Shown here: in pieces, positions 6,419 to 15,668 of the stretch
Layout: each line of letters starts with the position of its first letter
How positions within the stretch are numbered: position 1 is the stretch's first letter
From: Bdellovibrio sp. ZAP7
Lineage (GTDB): Bacteria > Bdellovibrionota > Bdellovibrionia > Bdellovibrionales > Bdellovibrionaceae
Assembly (NCBI RefSeq): GCF_006874645.1
Contig: NZ_CP030082.1
Span: 3,596,001-3,660,000 of the forward strand
DNA length: 64,000 nt
Direction of reading: 5' to 3'
The notes under the pieces: generated by a model
Database searches by the model: none
What the model was told of the DNA's origin: nothing
Seen by the model: the letters and a program-made list of their open reading frames with translations, nothing else
Made by a program: the position numbers and the translations under genes

Positions 6419-7066
6419 TTACTTTTCTACCACGCCCATCACTTCAGTTTCGCGAAGGATGACGAGGTCTTCATTTTTTAATTTAATTTTTGAACCGGAG
6501 TATTGCGAGAACACAACTTTGTCCCCGACTTTCAACTCCATAGGCGTCAAGTGACCTTTTTTGTTCACATGACCACGGCCCACAGAAACCACTGTGCCAT
6601 GCAGATTGCCGGAAACATCAGCCACGGTGTCTGGAATGTACAGTAAACCGCTTGCCGACATACGATCCGAACCAGAAGTTTGCACAATCAAACGATCATC
6701 CAGTGGCGTGACAAAATCACTGAGGTCCACCAACTTTTTCGCTGCTGGCTTCACCAAATGAGCCATAGCTGGCGCTTTGGTCTTCGCAACAGACGCTTGC
6801 GTTTTCACTGCGGATGATTTTTTCACAGAAGACGGAGCGGATTTCTTAAAAACTGCTTTTTTAGGTGCTGTTTTCTTGGCTACCGTTTTTTTAGCGGCTT
6901 TCGGAGCTGCTTTCGCTGCGGCTTTTTTTACTGGAGCTTTTTTTGCGACCTTGCCTGCAGACTTTTTTGCAGGTGATTTTTTAGAAACTTGTTTTGCGAC
7001 TTTTTTAACGACCTTTTTTGCGGTCTTTTTTACGGCTTTCTTAGCAGAAGATTTCTTCTTAGCCAC
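6419..7066 (-). CDS. GroES (Cpn10) domain with histone-H1-like Lys/Ala N-terminal extension
   Basis: The product is 215 residues. Residues 1-112 are almost entirely Lys, Ala, Val, Ser and Pro in AKK/KKA/PAKK repeats, like the tails of histone H1, AlgP or chlamydial Hc2, which bind DNA or RNA by charge. Residues 118-214 form a full GroES domain: PLDDRLIVQ at the start, a mobile loop with a hydrophobic GLLYIP motif, GTVVSVGRGH, KVGDKVVFSQYSG and the closing strand LVILRETEVMGVVE. Normal GroES is about 95 residues without such a tail. No groEL is nearby. It may be a nucleoid- or RNA-associated co-chaperonin, or a GroES paralogue with a new role. The porin-like gene follows after 10 nt. Confidence 0.85.
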   Translation of the reverse strand: MAKKKSSAKKAVKKTAKKVVKKVAKQVSKKSPAKKSAGKVAKKAPVKKAAAKAAPKAAKKTVAKKTAPKKAVFKKSAPSSVKKSSAVKTQASVAKTKAPAMAHLVKPAAKKLVDLSDFVTPLDDRLIVQTSGSDRMSASGLLYIPDTVADVSGNLHGTVVSVGRGHVNKKGHLTPMELKVGDKVVFSQYSGSKIKLKNEDLVILRETEVMGVVEK

Positions 7067-7123
7067 AACTTATCCCTTTCACGAAAAAACACTTCTACAG
7101 TGTCTATATTTCGTACTACTCTT

Positions 7124-9439
7124 ATGTGCATGTTGCGACCAAGATTAAAGACCATTTTAATTCGTTTTACAATCCTCGTGACGCTTGCAATCATCGTGGG
7201 CCTTGGGATTGGTGTCTATTCCTATTTTTCTCTCGAAAAAGAGATGTCACAAAAGCTTGAGTCCAAGCGCTTCATTGTACCTACGGAGTACTACGCAGGG
7301 CCGCGAGTTTTCAGTGTGCGCAACAGCGCCGACGCCAACACTGTGGAAGGCCTATTTAAGAATCAAAACTTCCGTCGTCGGGACTATGATCAGCGTTTGT
7401 TGCAGGGCGATTACTTTCTGGCAGACAGAGAGCAGTGCAGCGCTCGCCTGCAATTGCCTTTGGATGAAAATCAGGTCGCTTGCTTTGCCTGGGTGAACAA
7501 AGATGTCGCAACCGACAAAGTTGATTCCAGCATGCAGGTTTTGGTCTTTCAAAATGATGGGACTATCTCGAAAATCTTACTGGGAGCGCCTTTCCAGGAG
7601 TCTCAAACTGCTTACGGCGAAGCCCCGCTTTTGGCACAGTACATCGGTAACGAACCTTTAATGCAAAAAACCGTGACATTGGGTGAAGTACCTCCCACTT
7701 GTTCAAACGCCATCATGGCAATCGAAGACGCGCAGTTTCTGGAACACGGCGGAGTCAGCATCAAAGGCATCATGCGTGCCGTGGTCAAAAATATCACAAC
7801 CGGTCGCAAAGAAGGTGGCAGCACCATCACGCAACAGTTGGTGAAAAACTATTTCCTGACCAGCGAAAGAACTTTCAAAAGAAAGTACAACGAATTCATC
7901 ATGTCGATCTTGCTAGAGTCTCGCTTTAACAAAGACGAAATTCTAGAGACTTACCTGAATGTCATCTATATGGGCCAAAATGGTTCGTTCCAGGTGCGGG
8001 GTTACGGAGCAGCGGCTCGTTACTACTTCAACAAAGAGGTTTCTGATTTAGATCTGTCAGAGTGTTCTTTGTTAGCTGCCATTGTGAACAGCCCGGGCCT
8101 TTACAATCCGTTCAAAAAGCCTGCGAATGCAGAACGCCGTCGCCACTTGGTTTTGGATAAAATGAAAGGCTTGGATTTTATCACCGAAGCCCAAATGACA
8201 GCCGCAGATCACATGCCTTTGCCAAGTGCTCCGATCACTCTGGCAACTGAAACAGCTCCGTACTATCTGGATGCCGTTCGCAAACAATTGGACTCGTTAA
8301 AAATTCCAGTTGAGGGACTGCGTATCTACACAGCTCTGGATCTGGAAGCCCAACAAGCGGCTCAGGAATCTTTGCGCAATCATCTGGATGGCCTTGAAAA
8401 AACCAACAAACACATCAAAGGCCTGAAAGAAAAGGGCAACAGCCTGGAAGGCATTGTTCTAGTCGGAGACAACCGCAGCGGCCTAGTAAATGTTGTTGTG
8501 GGTGGTCGCAATTATCGCATGACTCAGTTCAATCGCGCGATCGATGGACATCGTCAAGTTGGTTCGACAATGAAGCCGTTCGTTTATTTGACGGCGTTGA
8601 TGAATGAAACTCCGGAGGGAAAACCTTACTCCCCGATCACGCTGCTCAATGATGAAAAGCAGCAGATTAAGTACGAAGGACAAACGTGGGCGCCGGAAAA
8701 TTACGGCAAAAAATATTACGGCCAAGTTCCAATGTTCTATGCTTTGAAAAACTCGATGAATGCGGCAACCGCCAATCTTGGCATGCAAGTGGGCCTTGGC
8801 AACATCGTCGATATCGCTCATAAATTCGGAATCGACTCCGAACTAAAAGCTTTCCCGTCACTGACTCTGGGAGCTTTTGAAATGTATCCCCGCGAAGTTT
8901 TACAAAGCTATATGACGATCGCCAACATGGGACTTCGTCGCGATATTTCCTTTGTTCGCAAAGCTGTAAATGCGGAAGGCAACGAAGTTTACACTTTCGA
9001 TCCGCATGAAAGGCAAGTGGAGGATCCTGCCACGGTCGCAAGCCTTATCAGCATGATGAAACAAGTGATCGTATCGGGTTCTGCTCGCGCGATTCCTTTG
9101 AATGGATTTACGAATCCTGCGGCAGGAAAAACCGGAACCACTAATGACAATAAAGACGCCTGGTTCAGCGGTTTCACACCTTATCTGACGACGATTGTTT
9201 GGGTGGGATACGACAACAACCTACAACACAAATTGACGGGTTCAAGTGGTGGCGTTCCGGTGTGGACAGACTTTATGAAAAAAATTGGCAGCCGTTATCC
9301 CGCTGACGACTTCGCTTGGCCAGAAGGCACCGTGAAAGTGACTTTGGATGAAGAAACACTAAAGGCCTTGAACGCTGTTCAAGCTCCATTCGATCCGACT
9401 TCAGTTGAATTGATTTTCAGAAAAGGGACGGAGCCATAG
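7124..9439 (+). CDS. Bifunctional penicillin-binding protein, PBP1B-like
   Basis: This is a class A peptidoglycan synthase at the inner membrane. It has a short basic N-terminus, one membrane helix, and a UB2H-like region (FSVRNSADANTVEGLFKNQN) as in PBP1B. The glycosyltransferase-51 domain follows (EDAQFLEHGGVSIKG with the catalytic Glu, then EGGSTITQQLVKN). The transpeptidase domain has all three penicillin-binding motifs: STMK (nucleophile Ser), SMN and KTGTT. I place the start at 7124 (or ATG 7130), since the frame upstream covers the divergent GroES-like gene. There is no clear Shine-Dalgarno. It makes and cross-links glycan strands. A perfect 27-bp inverted repeat follows the stop. Confidence 0.9.
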   Translation: MCMLRPRLKTILIRFTILVTLAIIVGLGIGVYSYFSLEKEMSQKLESKRFIVPTEYYAGPRVFSVRNSADANTVEGLFKNQNFRRRDYDQRLLQGDYFLADREQCSARLQLPLDENQVACFAWVNKDVATDKVDSSMQVLVFQNDGTISKILLGAPFQESQTAYGEAPLLAQYIGNEPLMQKTVTLGEVPPTCSNAIMAIEDAQFLEHGGVSIKGIMRAVVKNITTGRKEGGSTITQQLVKNYFLTSERTFKRKYNEFIMSILLESRFNKDEILETYLNVIYMGQNGSFQVRGYGAAARYYFNKEVSDLDLSECSLLAAIVNSPGLYNPFKKPANAERRRHLVLDKMKGLDFITEAQMTAADHMPLPSAPITLATETAPYYLDAVRKQLDSLKIPVEGLRIYTALDLEAQQAAQESLRNHLDGLEKTNKHIKGLKEKGNSLEGIVLVGDNRSGLVNVVVGGRNYRMTQFNRAIDGHRQVGSTMKPFVYLTALMNETPEGKPYSPITLLNDEKQQIKYEGQTWAPENYGKKYYGQVPMFYALKNSMNAATANLGMQVGLGNIVDIAHKFGIDSELKAFPSLTLGAFEMYPREVLQSYMTIANMGLRRDISFVRKAVNAEGNEVYTFDPHERQVEDPATVASLISMMKQVIVSGSARAIPLNGFTNPAAGKTGTTNDNKDAWFSGFTPYLTTIVWVGYDNNLQHKLTGSSGGVPVWTDFMKKIGSRYPADDFAWPEGTVKVTLDEETLKALNAVQAPFDPTSVELIFRKGTEP

Positions 9440-10656: not shown

Positions 10657-10758
10657 ATGGCGGTTCCTTTTGCACCCACCCATTATACGTCGCAGCCAAA
10701 AGATGCATCGTAAGTGACTGAAATTACTTAAATAATTTTATAACTCCGGGGCCTTAAA

Positions 10759-10775
10759 TTGGTACGCCTATTGCT
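10759..10775 (+). promoter_or_regulatory. Sigma-54 (-24/-12) promoter of the radical SAM operon
   Basis: TTGGTACGCCTATTGCT matches the consensus YTGGCACG-N4-TTGCW at every fixed position except one (C to T). The diagnostic GG and GC pairs are exactly 10 nt apart. Transcription should start near 10786, only about 2 nt before the annotated ATG at 10788. Either the mRNA is almost leaderless, or translation starts at a later codon. Confidence 0.72.
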
Positions 10776-10787
10776 TACTTCTGCAGT

Positions 10788-12095
10788 ATGGAAATTCGGA
10801 GACAAAATGACATCATTGCTTTTCGTGCGCCGGGGGAAACCCCAGTGGCTTTTCATGCGCGAAATCTAGAGGTGGCAGACATCTCCGAAGAGCTTTGGGG
10901 GGAGATGACCCAAGCCTCCAACGACTCCCTTCGGTCCGTGTTGACTGACTGGAACAACGAAATCAATCCACAAACAACAACGACAGTTCCGGGTAAAGAA
11001 ATCCGCGCGCTGACCATCAACGTTACGCAAATTTGCAATTTGAAATGCACATACTGCGCAGCTGGTGGCGACGGCACATACGGTGCCGCTCAAACTAAAA
11101 TCTCAGTTGAAAAAACTTTGCCACAGCTAAAATACTTCCTGGAGAAGGTTGCTGATTCAGGAACTTTCCGTATCGGCTTTATCGGCGGCGAACCCCTGCT
11201 ATATCCAGATGGCATTCGTGCTATCGCAAATTATGTGAAATTGATGACGGCTGGAAGAAACATTCGCGCGCAGTTTTCTATTGTGACGAATGGGACTTTG
11301 CTGACGGATGAAAACATCGCTTTGCTTGAAGAAATCAAATGCAATATCTCGGTGAGCATTGATGGCGAAGCTAAGTATAACGATGCCGCTCGCCCTATGA
11401 AAAACGGTCAAGGCAGCACGGCTGTTGTCGTTGAGGGACTTAAAAAACTTTTTGCTCGCAAAGAAAATTTTGGTTCCATCACTTTGCATGGTGTCTTTAC
11501 AGCTGAAAACATGCACGTGGCAGAAGCTTATGAGTTTTATCGCCAATTCCCAGCGGATGCTTACGAATTCACTTACAGCGTTTCTGATTTGAATCAGGAA
11601 GCCAGTGATACTTTCACACGCGAGATGCGCTTGATCGCAGCGATGGCTTACGCTGAAGGTGGCGAGACTGCACTTCGTAAGATCAGCTTTTTTAATCGCA
11701 TTTTCTCGGCGTTGGATGAACAACGTCGTACTGAAAACTTCTGTGGCGCCGGGAAATCCTTTCTGGTCGTAGATGCCCGCAACAACCTCTTTACCTGCCC
11801 TTGGGACGTTGGCAACGACGCCATGAAAGTGGGTCAAGGCACAGAGGTTTTCGAGGGCGCACTAGAAGAATACTCAAGTCCCCTGATTGAACAAAACAAC
11901 TGCCAAAGCTGCTGGGCCAGATTCCTTTGCGGCGGCGGCTGTATGTATGTTCACAAGGAAGCTACGGGTTCAAAACATCAGAAAAACGGTCAATTCTGCG
12001 AAAGAACGCGCAGCTTGGTCGGAACAGCCATTTTATACTTTAAAAAAAGTCGTCAGACTGATATTCAAGAGGACAGTGACTATGGAAAACACTAA
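10788..12095 (+). CDS. Radical SAM/SPASM peptide maturase
   Basis: The 435-residue product has the radical SAM cluster motif CNLKCTYC (Cys83, 87, 90), the GGEP S-adenosylmethionine motif (133-136), and a complete seven-Cys SPASM domain: Cys319, 337, 372, 375, 381, 385 and 404, with CQSCW and CGGGC spacing. SPASM proteins carry auxiliary iron-sulfur clusters and usually modify small ribosomal peptides, forming thioether, C-C or similar links. The first 60 residues precede the barrel and may be a substrate-recognition region. No Shine-Dalgarno precedes ATG 10788; ATG at residue 40 (GGGGGGAG upstream) is an alternative start that spares all motifs. A 34-residue peptide gene overlaps its end by 14 nt, and the sensor kinase and activator follow. 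Confidence 0.88.
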   Translation: MEIRRQNDIIAFRAPGETPVAFHARNLEVADISEELWGEMTQASNDSLRSVLTDWNNEINPQTTTTVPGKEIRALTINVTQICNLKCTYCAAGGDGTYGAAQTKISVEKTLPQLKYFLEKVADSGTFRIGFIGGEPLLYPDGIRAIANYVKLMTAGRNIRAQFSIVTNGTLLTDENIALLEEIKCNISVSIDGEAKYNDAARPMKNGQGSTAVVVEGLKKLFARKENFGSITLHGVFTAENMHVAEAYEFYRQFPADAYEFTYSVSDLNQEASDTFTREMRLIAAMAYAEGGETALRKISFFNRIFSALDEQRRTENFCGAGKSFLVVDARNNLFTCPWDVGNDAMKVGQGTEVFEGALEEYSSPLIEQNNCQSCWARFLCGGGCMYVHKEATGSKHQKNGQFCERTRSLVGTAILYFKKSRQTDIQEDSDYGKH

Positions 12096-12186
12096 AAAAA
12101 CTACGACACACATCAAGAAAGTAAAGCCTCGCGGCAACGTGCTTTCTGCCGTACCCACAGCCAGCGAATGCATCCCAGTTAAGTAA
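12082..12186 (+). CDS. Putative RiPP precursor peptide (34 aa) of the radical SAM maturase
   Basis: This is a small reading frame that standard gene callers may skip. It starts at ATG 12082, 14 nt before the end of the maturase gene, with a good Shine-Dalgarno (AGAGGA, about 8 nt upstream). The N-terminal half is polar and strongly basic (MENTKKTTTHIKKVKPR), as expected of a leader. Residues 18-34 (GNVLSAVPTASECIPVK) form a short core with one Cys (Cys30) and several small residues, which would allow one thioether or similar cross-link. There is no Trp or Tyr. It has no known homologue that I recognise. The precursor role is inferred from size, coupling and the SPASM neighbour. Confidence 0.65.
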   Translation: MENTKKTTTHIKKVKPRGNVLSAVPTASECIPVK

Positions 12187-12219: not shown

Positions 12220-14100
12220 ATGAAACTGCCAAGTCCATTCGAGGAAACAACGAACTCCTCGAAACCAGTGCAATACCGCGTTTACGCGATCAGAGCTGTA
12301 TTAGCTATGATCATGGCGTTCCTTATTGCGCAAATCAATTTGGACTATGTGGAGTCATGGCTTTATGACTTCCGCATCCGCTCGCAGCTCTTCCAAAGAA
12401 CTTCTGAAAAAATTGAACTGGTTTACATCAAACCCTCAACAGTTCAGGCTTTCAAAGGTCAACCGAACGCCAAGGACCAGACAGCGATTCTTTATAACCT
12501 TTTGGCCGCTCACCCGCGTGCTGTGGTTTATGATTTTGCGATCGACGACGCCCAAGGCAGTGAAGAAGACAAAGCGGAATGGGCGAACCTTATCGTTCAA
12601 AGCACCAATGTCTATGTGGCAACTCCTGACACCCCACTAAAGGGCGAGGAGCGCAGCCTCTATTTACCTCTGCCGTTTGATCATGTGCGCATGGTTTCGG
12701 CTCCAAAAACTTCTGATACTATTAACTTTGCCAAAGACCGCGTCACTCGCCGCATGCTTTTGTCCTATCAGGATTCAATGATGCTTCCTGTGACTTTGGC
12801 GGGCTTCTATAATCCTGATGTTTTAGATTTTAGAAAAATCCGCGGTTACTTTGATTTCTATGATACCAAGCAATCCTTTATTGACTACCGTCGACCTGGC
12901 TCCTTCCCGTCGACCGTGTTCGACGATCTGGCCAATGGCAAAGTGGATTGGACTAAATTCGAAGATAAAATCGTTATCATCGGGACTGATTTAAATATCA
13001 GCGAGTCAGACTATATTCTGACTCCTTATAGCCGTATTCCTTCGGCTATGACCCGCATTGAAATGCAGGCAAATATCATCGATACCCTGATCCGTAACTC
13101 CAGCCCGGTCAGAATGCCAACCTATGTGAACTGGATCCTGCTGACTTTGATTTCCATCCTGGCAATTCAAATCGTCCTGAGCATGAGCCCGGCAATGGGT
13201 TTGGTGATTTTAGTTGGAACACTGACAGGATTTTCGGTTATTTCGTTCACTTTGTTCTGGTTATTCGGCTGGTGGATCACCATGGCGGCTCCGTTGTTGG
13301 CGGGTTTCCTGGTTTACTATTTCTTTATCCCTTACCGTCTGATCATCGAAAACCGTCGCAGCTGGGAATACTATCAAAAGAATAAACTTTTGAGTCAGGT
13401 CGAAGAGCTTAAGACGAATTTTATCTCGATGATGTCCCACGATTTGAAGACACCGATTGCGCGGATTCAAGGGATGACGGATGTGATCTTGGCTGATCAG
13501 GTGCAATTGAGCACGCAACAGCGCGAAGCCGTGGATACGATCAAGCATTCCTCTGACGATCTGTTGAAATTTATCAGCTCGATTTTGAATTACGGAAAAA
13601 TTCAAAGCGAAGGCGTGGAACTGCACATGCAAACCAAGGACATCAACAATGTCCTTCAGGAAGTAATCCGTAAGCATGAGTTCCTGGCGAAAGTAAAACG
13701 CATCCAGATCGTGTCAGAGCTTGAACCGCTGTTCCCTATTCGTATGGATCCGGATTTGATGCGCCAAGTGCTTTCAAATCTGGTGGAAAACGCGATCAAG
13801 TACAGCCCGGATGACACGAAAATCCTGGTCACCAGTGAGGAAAGGGATGAACGAGTTGTCATTCAGGTTTCTGACCAGGGACCGGGAATTCCCGAGGACG
13901 AACTGAATAATATTTTCATGAAGTTCTTTAGAAGCAAAAACGTAAAGAGCACGCAGATAAAAGGCTCGGGGCTGGGCCTTTACTTGGCTAAATATTTTAC
14001 AGAACTACACAAGGGACGCATCTTTGTGGAGTCGAAAGATGGAAAAGGTTCCACATTTACGGTAGAACTGCCGATGGAACAAGGGGGCGTAAATGCTTAA
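12220..14100 (+). CDS. CHASE2-domain sensor histidine kinase
   Basis: The product is 626 residues. One membrane helix (about 22-40) is followed by an extracytoplasmic CHASE2 domain (about 45-295). Three further helices follow (about 303-322, 325-349, 352-371), the standard CHASE2 topology. The dimerisation H-box is SHDLKTPIARI with His407. The ATPase domain has the N-box NLVENAIKYS, DQGPGIP and GSGLGLYLAKYF, so all catalytic motifs are intact. It should sense a periplasmic signal and phosphorylate the activator encoded next, whose start overlaps by 8 nt. Being downstream of the maturase and peptide suggests that it senses the peptide or a condition tied to it; this is inference. Confidence 0.9.
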   Translation: MKLPSPFEETTNSSKPVQYRVYAIRAVLAMIMAFLIAQINLDYVESWLYDFRIRSQLFQRTSEKIELVYIKPSTVQAFKGQPNAKDQTAILYNLLAAHPRAVVYDFAIDDAQGSEEDKAEWANLIVQSTNVYVATPDTPLKGEERSLYLPLPFDHVRMVSAPKTSDTINFAKDRVTRRMLLSYQDSMMLPVTLAGFYNPDVLDFRKIRGYFDFYDTKQSFIDYRRPGSFPSTVFDDLANGKVDWTKFEDKIVIIGTDLNISESDYILTPYSRIPSAMTRIEMQANIIDTLIRNSSPVRMPTYVNWILLTLISILAIQIVLSMSPAMGLVILVGTLTGFSVISFTLFWLFGWWITMAAPLLAGFLVYYFFIPYRLIIENRRSWEYYQKNKLLSQVEELKTNFISMMSHDLKTPIARIQGMTDVILADQVQLSTQQREAVDTIKHSSDDLLKFISSILNYGKIQSEGVELHMQTKDINNVLQEVIRKHEFLAKVKRIQIVSELEPLFPIRMDPDLMRQVLSNLVENAIKYSPDDTKILVTSEERDERVVIQVSDQGPGIPEDELNNIFMKFFRSKNVKSTQIKGSGLGLYLAKYFTELHKGRIFVESKDGKGSTFTVELPMEQGGVNA

Positions 14101-15616
14101 GGTTTTGGTAGTAGACGACGATCAAGGGTTGAGACTTTCAGTTAAGACAGCCCTTACATCCAACCAACGTTTTGACGTCGACGAAGCATTCGATGGCATC
14201 AACGCCATGGAAAAAATTAAAGCCGGTACGACTAAGTACGACCTTGTTATTCTTGACGTCGACATGCCTCGCTTAAACGGCCTGGAAACTCTTCGCGCTA
14301 TCAAAGAATACGACTCTGGTATCATCGTGATGGTGATGACCGCGCATGCCACTTTGAACGATGCTGTTCAAGCCGTTAAAGACGGTGCTTACAATTATCT
14401 TTCCAAACCAGTTGCGGGTGATGAACTATTAGCTTTGATCGATAAAGCCGTGAACGCTCACAACTTGATTTCCAATATCGCATTCTCTGCCCCTGTGATG
14501 GTTGAAGAAGGTCGCAAGATCATCGGTCACACATCCCAAATGCAGAAAGTATTTAACATCATCCACCGCCTTGCCAAAGTGGACACTCCGGTTTTGATCC
14601 GTGGTGCCTCCGGTACAGGTAAAGAGTTGGTCGCAAAAGCGATCCATTTCAACTCGGCTCGCAAAGACGAAAAGTTCGTGGCGATCAACTGTTCTGCAAT
14701 TCCAGAGAACTTGTTTGAATCTGAATTATTTGGTCACGAAAAAGGCTCGTTCACTGGCGCTGATCAACGTAAAATCGGTAAATTCCAATTCGCTGAGGGT
14801 GGCACTTTGTTCTTGGACGAAGTCGGTGACATGCCTCAATTGATGCAAGTTAAAATCTTGCGCGTTCTTCAGGAAAAACTATTCACTCCTGTGGGCTCGA
14901 ACCGCGAATTCGCCAGCAACGTACGTATCATTGCTGCGACAAACCGTCCTTTGGAGGACATGATCAAAGCCGGAACTTTCCGTGAAGACTTGTTCTATCG
15001 CCTGAACGTCGTACCTATATTCTTGCCAGCTCTTCAAGAGCGTAAAGATGATCTTGAGCACATGATCAACATCTTCATCAAGAAGTTCAATCAAGCTCAA
15101 GGCAAACGCATCAATGGTATTACTCCGGATGCGATGGCGGTTCTTAAAAAACATTCTTGGCCAGGAAACATCCGTGAGCTTGAGAACGTGATTGAACATG
15201 CTTTCGTTCTGGAAACGAGCAACTTGATCACTTTGGCATCTTTGCCAGAGGCTTTGTTGATCGCAACAGGTACTAACTTGATCGATCTTTCACCGTTTGA
15301 AACGGCTCAGAACGTGGCTTCTGCTGGCATCGTTAAAGCAGCAAAAGCGCATGTGAGTTTGGGTGAAGACGATGAAAATGCTGGAAGTGATATCGACTCT
15401 GAAGACCTTGAAGGTGAAGAGATTGTTCCTTACTCTGGCGAGAATCTTGATTTCAACGCGCAAAAAGAAGCGTTCGAAAAAGAGTTTATCATCAAGGCAC
15501 TAAAAACTTTCCGTGGTCGCATCAATCAAACAGCGCTTCACGCGAACATTCCGAAAAAAACTTTGCTACGCAAAATTGAAAAATACGGAATTATCGCCAA
15601 AGACTACGCAAACTAA
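14093..15616 (+). CDS. NtrC-family sigma-54 response regulator
   Basis: The product is 507 residues. The receiver domain has the acidic pocket DDD (8-10), phospho-acceptor Asp55, Thr83 and Lys105. The AAA+ domain has Walker A GASGTGKE (171-178), a GSFTGA loop (218-223, canonical GAFTGA, which contacts sigma-54), Walker B FLDE and the WPGNIREL sensor. An acidic linker (about 425-450) leads to a Fis-type helix-turn-helix near the end (RINQTALHANIPKKTLLRKI). It is fully equipped to activate sigma-54 promoters, and one such promoter stands at the head of this gene run, at 10759. A terminator follows. Confidence 0.93.
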   Translation: MLKVLVVDDDQGLRLSVKTALTSNQRFDVDEAFDGINAMEKIKAGTTKYDLVILDVDMPRLNGLETLRAIKEYDSGIIVMVMTAHATLNDAVQAVKDGAYNYLSKPVAGDELLALIDKAVNAHNLISNIAFSAPVMVEEGRKIIGHTSQMQKVFNIIHRLAKVDTPVLIRGASGTGKELVAKAIHFNSARKDEKFVAINCSAIPENLFESELFGHEKGSFTGADQRKIGKFQFAEGGTLFLDEVGDMPQLMQVKILRVLQEKLFTPVGSNREFASNVRIIAATNRPLEDMIKAGTFREDLFYRLNVVPIFLPALQERKDDLEHMINIFIKKFNQAQGKRINGITPDAMAVLKKHSWPGNIRELENVIEHAFVLETSNLITLASLPEALLIATGTNLIDLSPFETAQNVASAGIVKAAKAHVSLGEDDENAGSDIDSEDLEGEEIVPYSGENLDFNAQKEAFEKEFIIKALKTFRGRINQTALHANIPKKTLLRKIEKYGIIAKDYAN

Positions 15617-15638: not shown

Positions 15639-15668
15639 AAGGCCTTCCATTCCCGGAAGGCCTTTTTT
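15639..15668 (+). terminator. Intrinsic terminator of the maturase-kinase-activator operon
   Basis: A 10-bp stem, AAGGCCTTCC / GGAAGGCCTT, closes on ATTCCC and runs into six T. It lies 23 nt after the stop of the sigma-54 activator gene and closes the operon. Confidence 0.9.

Follow-up and report, generated by a model that had tools for sequence, protein, structure and literature searches.

The window, i.e. the complete stretch of DNA that was analysed, consists of 64,000 nucleotides of the Bdellovibrio sp. ZAP7 genome (NZ_CP030082.1, positions 3,596,001 to 3,660,000). It contains an operon with the order maturase, peptide, CHASE2 histidine kinase, NtrC-type regulator and terminator-like hairpin (Table 1). 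The maturase is a radical-SAM/SPASM protein, and the product of the peptide gene, MENTKKTTTHIKKVKPRGNVLSAVPTASECIPVK, has a single cysteine at residue 30. A first-pass annotation had described this single-Cys frame of 34 residues with a ribosome-binding site of its own, AGAGGA, and both can be read directly from the window sequence. It had also reported an overlap with the maturase gene. The maturase 3' end (12095) does reach 14 nt into the peptide gene in the window, but this is peculiar to the window's close relatives and not a general trait; the peptide start falls 3' of the maturase stop in many other relatives. The sigma-54 promoter, the kinase and the regulator did not figure in that annotation. 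The response regulator at the end of the operon scored below the cutoff of the NCBIfam ntrC model.

Table 1. Features of the operon and its upstream region (window coordinates)
Feature	Position	Strand	Basis
Conserved upstream element GGTTCCTTTTGCACCCA, candidate regulator site	10662-10678	+	alignment of 19 relatives; G000:C1:3606662-3606678 in genome search
Inverted repeat TAAGTGACTGAAATTACTT (imperfect), at which the operon's own response regulator may bind	10711-10729	+	conserved in relatives
Conserved sigma-54 promoter TTGGTACGCCTATTGCT	10759-10775	+	12/13 consensus positions
Radical-SAM/SPASM peptide maturase, 435 aa	10788-12095	+	Pfam Radical_SAM; invariant Cys; AlphaFold model; CteB match
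RRE-like N-terminal domain of the maturase, residues 1-57, presumed leader-binding	10788-10958	+	strands, then two helices
Ribosome-binding site of the peptide gene, AGAGGA	12068-12073	+	sequence; 8 nt 5' of ATG
Probable precursor peptide gene, 34 aa	12082-12186	+	found at each readable maturase locus; under purifying selection
Leader block HIKKVKP, residues 10-16	12109-12129	+	near-invariant H, I, K, K, P over 30 aligned members
Core block ASECIPVK, residues 27-34, with Cys30 (12169-12171) and Pro32	12160-12183	+	conservation
CHASE2 sensor histidine kinase, candidate recipient of a peptide signal	12220-14100	+	Pfam CHASE2, HisKA, HATPase_c
NtrC-type sigma-54-activating response regulator	14093-15616	+	Pfam Response_reg, Sigma54_activat, Fis-type HTH_8
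Terminator-like hairpin at operon end	15639-15664	+	10-bp stem, then T run

In the sigma-54 promoter, the -24 GG lies at 10761-10762 and the -12 GC at 10773-10774, 15 nt from the maturase ATG. This spacing is 15 to 19 nt in most of the window's own genus; with a -12 element so near the ATG, the maturase transcript would be nearly leaderless. Scores of at least 11 for a sigma-54 box were found upstream of the maturase in 33 of 68 relatives, compared to 0.24% of shuffled sequences. Before the kinase, 4 of 18 loci that lack the maturase reached the same score (0.17% of shuffles); since some maturase-less kinase loci thus have such a site, sigma-54 control is probably older than the maturase-peptide pair. 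Across genomes, the inverted repeat and the sigma-54 box recur together at this operon only, a restriction that would fit self-regulation. Further targets of an inverted-repeat regulon were searched for and rejected, as the remaining good sites lie in or near unrelated genes and have no recurring sigma-54 box. The most upstream element has a genus consensus of about GAAATAGTTTCCTTTTGCCCCCAG; in most of the genus this GTTTCCTTTTGCCCCCA-like block precedes the maturase by approximately 110 nt. We propose that the one sigma-54 promoter would drive maturase, peptide, kinase and regulator, presumably upon activation by the operon's own regulator.

Conservation of the peptide and its association with the maturase

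By itself, the 34-residue frame might be due to chance, because the same frame stays open for 99 amino acids further upstream in the window. This doubt is settled by conservation. The nearest relative, whose maturase is 98% identical, encodes an identical peptide, and all four nucleotide differences in the gene are synonymous. Pooled over nine close pairs, the pN/pS of the peptide gene is 0.21, with ~99 synonymous versus 67 non-synonymous changes. Such a pattern is typical of a translated peptide, and purifying selection on it is clear. A chance ORF, or an RNA element that accounts for the conserved stretch, is hardly conceivable in view of the dominance of synonymous changes and of a protein that is kept, at every locus read, while the DNA diverges.

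The locus set consisted of 72 distinct Bdellovibrionales loci with a maturase and enough downstream sequence to read. The peptide was present at all 72; a frameshift or loss of the frame next to a retained maturase, which the first-pass annotation had named as evidence against the gene, did not occur. A regular expression (leader-like tetrapeptide plus Cys-Pro tail) accepted 70 of these loci, and the other two (L080 and L093) were recognised by eye; when the same slots were shuffled with a first-order Markov model, 2.1% passed. A blind six-frame search with a peptide profile found the peptide in 49 of 61 family genomes at E <= 0.1, nearly always as a single match and beside the maturase. In one genome (G201, L049/L145) the peptide gene is present twice in tandem, both copies lying between maturase and kinase.

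The peptides have two conserved blocks, which correspond to the leader-like half and the compact Cys half predicted earlier. The basic leader has the family pattern [KT]-H-I-K-K-[VIL]-K-P, in which H, I, K and K are found in 53, 59, 60 and 57 of 68 distinct peptides, respectively. Behind it come a linker that varies between peptides and then, at the C-terminus, the C-x-P or C-P core. Alignment of the same position in relatives, as the first-pass annotation had suggested, revealed a conserved Cys30: all 68 distinct peptides contain a Cys, with a Pro at +1 or +2 from it, and C30 and P32 are the only invariant columns of the peptide alignment. Exactly one Cys is present in 66 of the 68; L081 and L085 are the sole two-Cys peptides in this tally. 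The Cys is followed by 3 to 12 residues (4 in about half of the peptides), and one clade (L037, L073, L075, L082, L084, L088) has C-P-E in place of C-x-P. Searches of NCBIfam and Pfam with the window peptide gave no family match, and assignment to a known family through stray weak matches of one or two other members was not convincing.

Of 60 relatives, 49 gave a maturase match when weak ones were counted; across the phylum, 82 of 369 genomes had one at E <= 1e-40. Most hosts of the pair are Bdellovibrio relatives. The CHASE2 kinase gene comes after the peptide gene in the readable maturase loci, but the kinase family is wider, with 301 of the 369 genomes. We fetched 20 kinase loci, nearly all from maturase-less genomes, of which 18 had readable upstream sequence (at L151 and L162 the locus stops at a contig edge). 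No peptide of this pattern was detected upstream of the kinase in any of the 18. One locus (L167) has only a distant radical-SAM gene that does not adjoin the kinase. In G008 and G031 the maturase seemed to have been lost, but the kinase sits at a contig end in both, and they are thus uninformative on this point.

One f4 lineage provides a comparison: in G046, a penicillin-binding protein region and the kinase enclose maturase and peptide, and in G263 the same flanks enclose neither (identities: penicillin-binding protein 62%, kinase 65%, regulator 73%). On a tree of 84 kinases, the presence of the pair requires 6 changes (4 forced) compared to 15.6 for shuffled labels; the pair thus appears to have been passed down by inheritance for the most part, with occasional loss or gain of both genes as one unit. 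Judged from these comparisons, related genomes gain or lose maturase and peptide together between the same flanks. Matches beyond Bdellovibrionales (L098-L120, <220 bits) were set aside, as they are without this kinase and without this type of peptide. One MAG contig labelled Streptomyces griseus (L060, CALQIT020000002.1) has a Bdellovibrionales maturase, peptide and kinase, and is probably a mislabelled bin.

A short gene-encoded precursor tied to a modifying enzyme is what defines a RiPP system, and the strict partnership seen here, with the peptide at 72 of 72 maturase loci and at none of the 18 readable maturase-less kinase loci, corresponds to it. The suggestion of a RiPP precursor in the first-pass annotation is thus strongly supported, and we consider it highly probable that the peptide is the dedicated RiPP-type substrate of the adjoining upstream maturase. 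The same distribution bears on the idea that the small protein stays unmodified and acts as a regulator of the kinase or as a subunit of the radical-SAM enzyme, whose true substrate would be another protein. Small proteins that regulate histidine kinases exist, but the peptide tracks the maturase and not the kinase, being absent from maturase-less kinase loci, and a variable linker that leads to an invariant Cys-x-Pro tail is the arrangement seen in leader-core substrates. This makes an unmodified protein very unlikely.

The maturase and the probable modification

The maturase has a CxxxCxYC motif (Cys at residues 83, 87 and 90) and SPASM cysteines at residues 319, 337, 372, 375, 381, 385 and 404. 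All ten, three radical-SAM and seven SPASM Cys, are invariant in 33 relatives. The best PDB match of its AlphaFold model (pLDDT 86.7) is CteB (5wgg), with a Z score of 36.9 and an rmsd of 3.0 over 399 residues; CteB was also found by Foldseek (E 5.6e-25) and by profile search (E 1.8e-46). The top NCBIfam models, on the other hand, are Nif11, PapB, QhpD and SCIFF, all far under their cutoffs. The maturase thus folds like the thioether-forming CteB yet reaches the cutoff of no curated family; in its way of working, the system would resemble RRE-SPASM RiPP systems.

The N-terminal 66 residues were also modelled alone (pLDDT 88.1). Their top matches are RREs, namely TbiB1 (Foldseek, E 0.12), the CteB N-terminus (Z 4.8) and the lasso B1 protein 6jx3 (Z 3.5), all of them weak. 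By the logic of such enzyme families, it is quite probable that this RRE-like N-terminus binds the HIKKVKP leader and would so bring the C-terminal Cys-x-Pro core to the active site.

Among known systems, CteB/SCIFF (TIGR03974; PDB 5wgg, 5why) is the closest solved relative in sequence and fold. Both have a radical-SAM/SPASM maturase, with a fused RRE in CteB and an RRE-like N-terminus here, and a short precursor beside it, and both are widely retained within one bacterial group. SCIFF peptides contain six Cys, however, compared to one in 66 of the 68 distinct peptides here; the maturase reaches 141.8 bits where the cutoff is 425, it comes from another phylum, and its operon includes a CHASE2 kinase and a sigma-54 activator. 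The Nif11-type radical-SAM maturase model (TIGR04064) gave the highest NCBIfam score (192.2 bits), which is under the cutoff of 518.7, and the window peptide matches no NCBIfam family. PapB (NF047865), a thioether-forming radical-SAM/SPASM enzyme, was second (180.6 bits), but its cutoff of 340 was not reached, and the peptides lack the CX3D motif of PapA and a conserved acidic acceptor. A lone Cys-Xn-Asp motif is accepted by PapB for n values between 0 and 6 (PMC9413430). An acidic residue within 8 positions before the Cys is found in only 45 of the 68 peptides, and we thus rejected a PapB-type Cys-Asp/Glu link as a general solution.

The enzyme class together with the invariant Cys argues for a modification at this residue, and Cys30 is likely to be cross-linked by the maturase. 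A single thioether (loss of 2 Da) would be the most plausible product, with about even chances of being the actual one. The first-pass annotation had concluded that the lone Cys limits the product to one thioether or a similar link. The part that concerns the Cys holds, since it is invariant and nearly always single, but a lone Cys is no proof of a thioether, because no potential acceptor residue besides Pro is conserved.

An invariant core this small could also mean that the peptide is consumed in the synthesis of a small cofactor or redox group with a function elsewhere in the cell, as PqqA is for PQQ and MftA for mycofactocin. The broad vertical conservation and the presence of mostly one peptide copy per genome resemble such precursors too. 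However, the maturase scores 62.5 bits with the mycofactocin model TIGR03962 (cutoff 265), neither a Tyr nor a Glu-Tyr pair is conserved in the precursor, and further processing enzymes are absent from the adjacent genes. A cofactor precursor is thus distinctly unlikely.

A possible signalling role

Since the peptide has long been kept beside one radical-SAM enzyme and a two-component pair in predatory bacteria and their relatives, the likeliest reading is that it feeds, in modified form, a signalling circuit. More specifically, the modified C-terminal piece might be the input or feedback signal of the CHASE2 kinase; gene order, the shared promoter and joint inheritance point in this direction, and we put this forward tentatively, at somewhat less than even chances. 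The sigma-54 promoter at the start of the operon and the sigma-54 activator at its end fit this reading. In its most complete version, a CHASE2 kinase would receive a radical-SAM-modified single-Cys peptide as its ligand or as feedback, and would switch on its own operon via sigma-54. Such a self-amplifying RiPP loop, with the first CHASE2 ligand, in a Gram-negative and largely predatory lineage, is an idea to which we give roughly one chance in three.

The operon genes include no exporter or protease, and no signal peptide was apparent when the peptide was inspected by eye for a hydrophobic stretch. This strains the signal reading, because the CHASE2 sensor should face the outside of the cytoplasm. 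The kinase family also cannot need a peptide in general, given that 301 genomes have the kinase and 82 the maturase. The pair might instead make an extracellular product, i.e. an antibacterial or predator-prey effector RiPP without a signalling function, in which case kinase and regulator would merely control production. Many sactipeptides and ranthipeptides are bioactive, the operon is regulated, and its hosts are mostly Bdellovibrio relatives. Against such a product, the operon lacks transporter, immunity and protease genes, and the core is near-invariant and vertically kept across families, unlike that of diversifying bacteriocins. We thus regard an extracellular product as unlikely.

The signalling reading resembles the RaS-RiPP/Rgg-SHP and other peptide-pheromone circuits in that a radical-SAM-modified peptide would be coupled to a regulator. 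Here, however, the host is Gram-negative, the partners would be a membrane histidine kinase and a sigma-54 activator, and there is neither an exporter nor an SHP. With regard to peptide-pheromone histidine kinase systems, the kinase is encoded beside the peptide here and may serve as its receptor. A part in quorum sensing has been reported for ranthipeptides derived from SCIFF (Chen et al. 2020, as cited in PMC8102284).

In open-licence papers, we did not find a description of this Bdellovibrio locus, with its radical-SAM peptide pair and CHASE2 kinase, and as far as we found the peptide family is previously undescribed. If our reading is correct, a RiPP-like module that is retained by vertical descent exists in most of the Bdellovibrio family; its peptide is not covered by curated models and would be a minimal radical-SAM substrate with one Cys, ~30 residues and no conserved acidic acceptor. 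For CHASE2 sensor domains, the ligands were stated to be unknown (PMC5192318), and the maturase-peptide pair offers a concrete, testable candidate. As the same kinase occurs naturally both with and without the pair upstream, the two states can readily be compared.

Further upstream, the window contains a gene for a class A penicillin-binding protein (6989-9439, + strand), relatives of which also precede the kinase in several pair-less genomes, hinting at a link of the two-component system to the cell envelope. The frame at 6419-7066 (- strand) encodes a GroES-like (Cpn10) protein whose N-terminal tail of ~118 residues is histone-like and rich in Lys and Ala.
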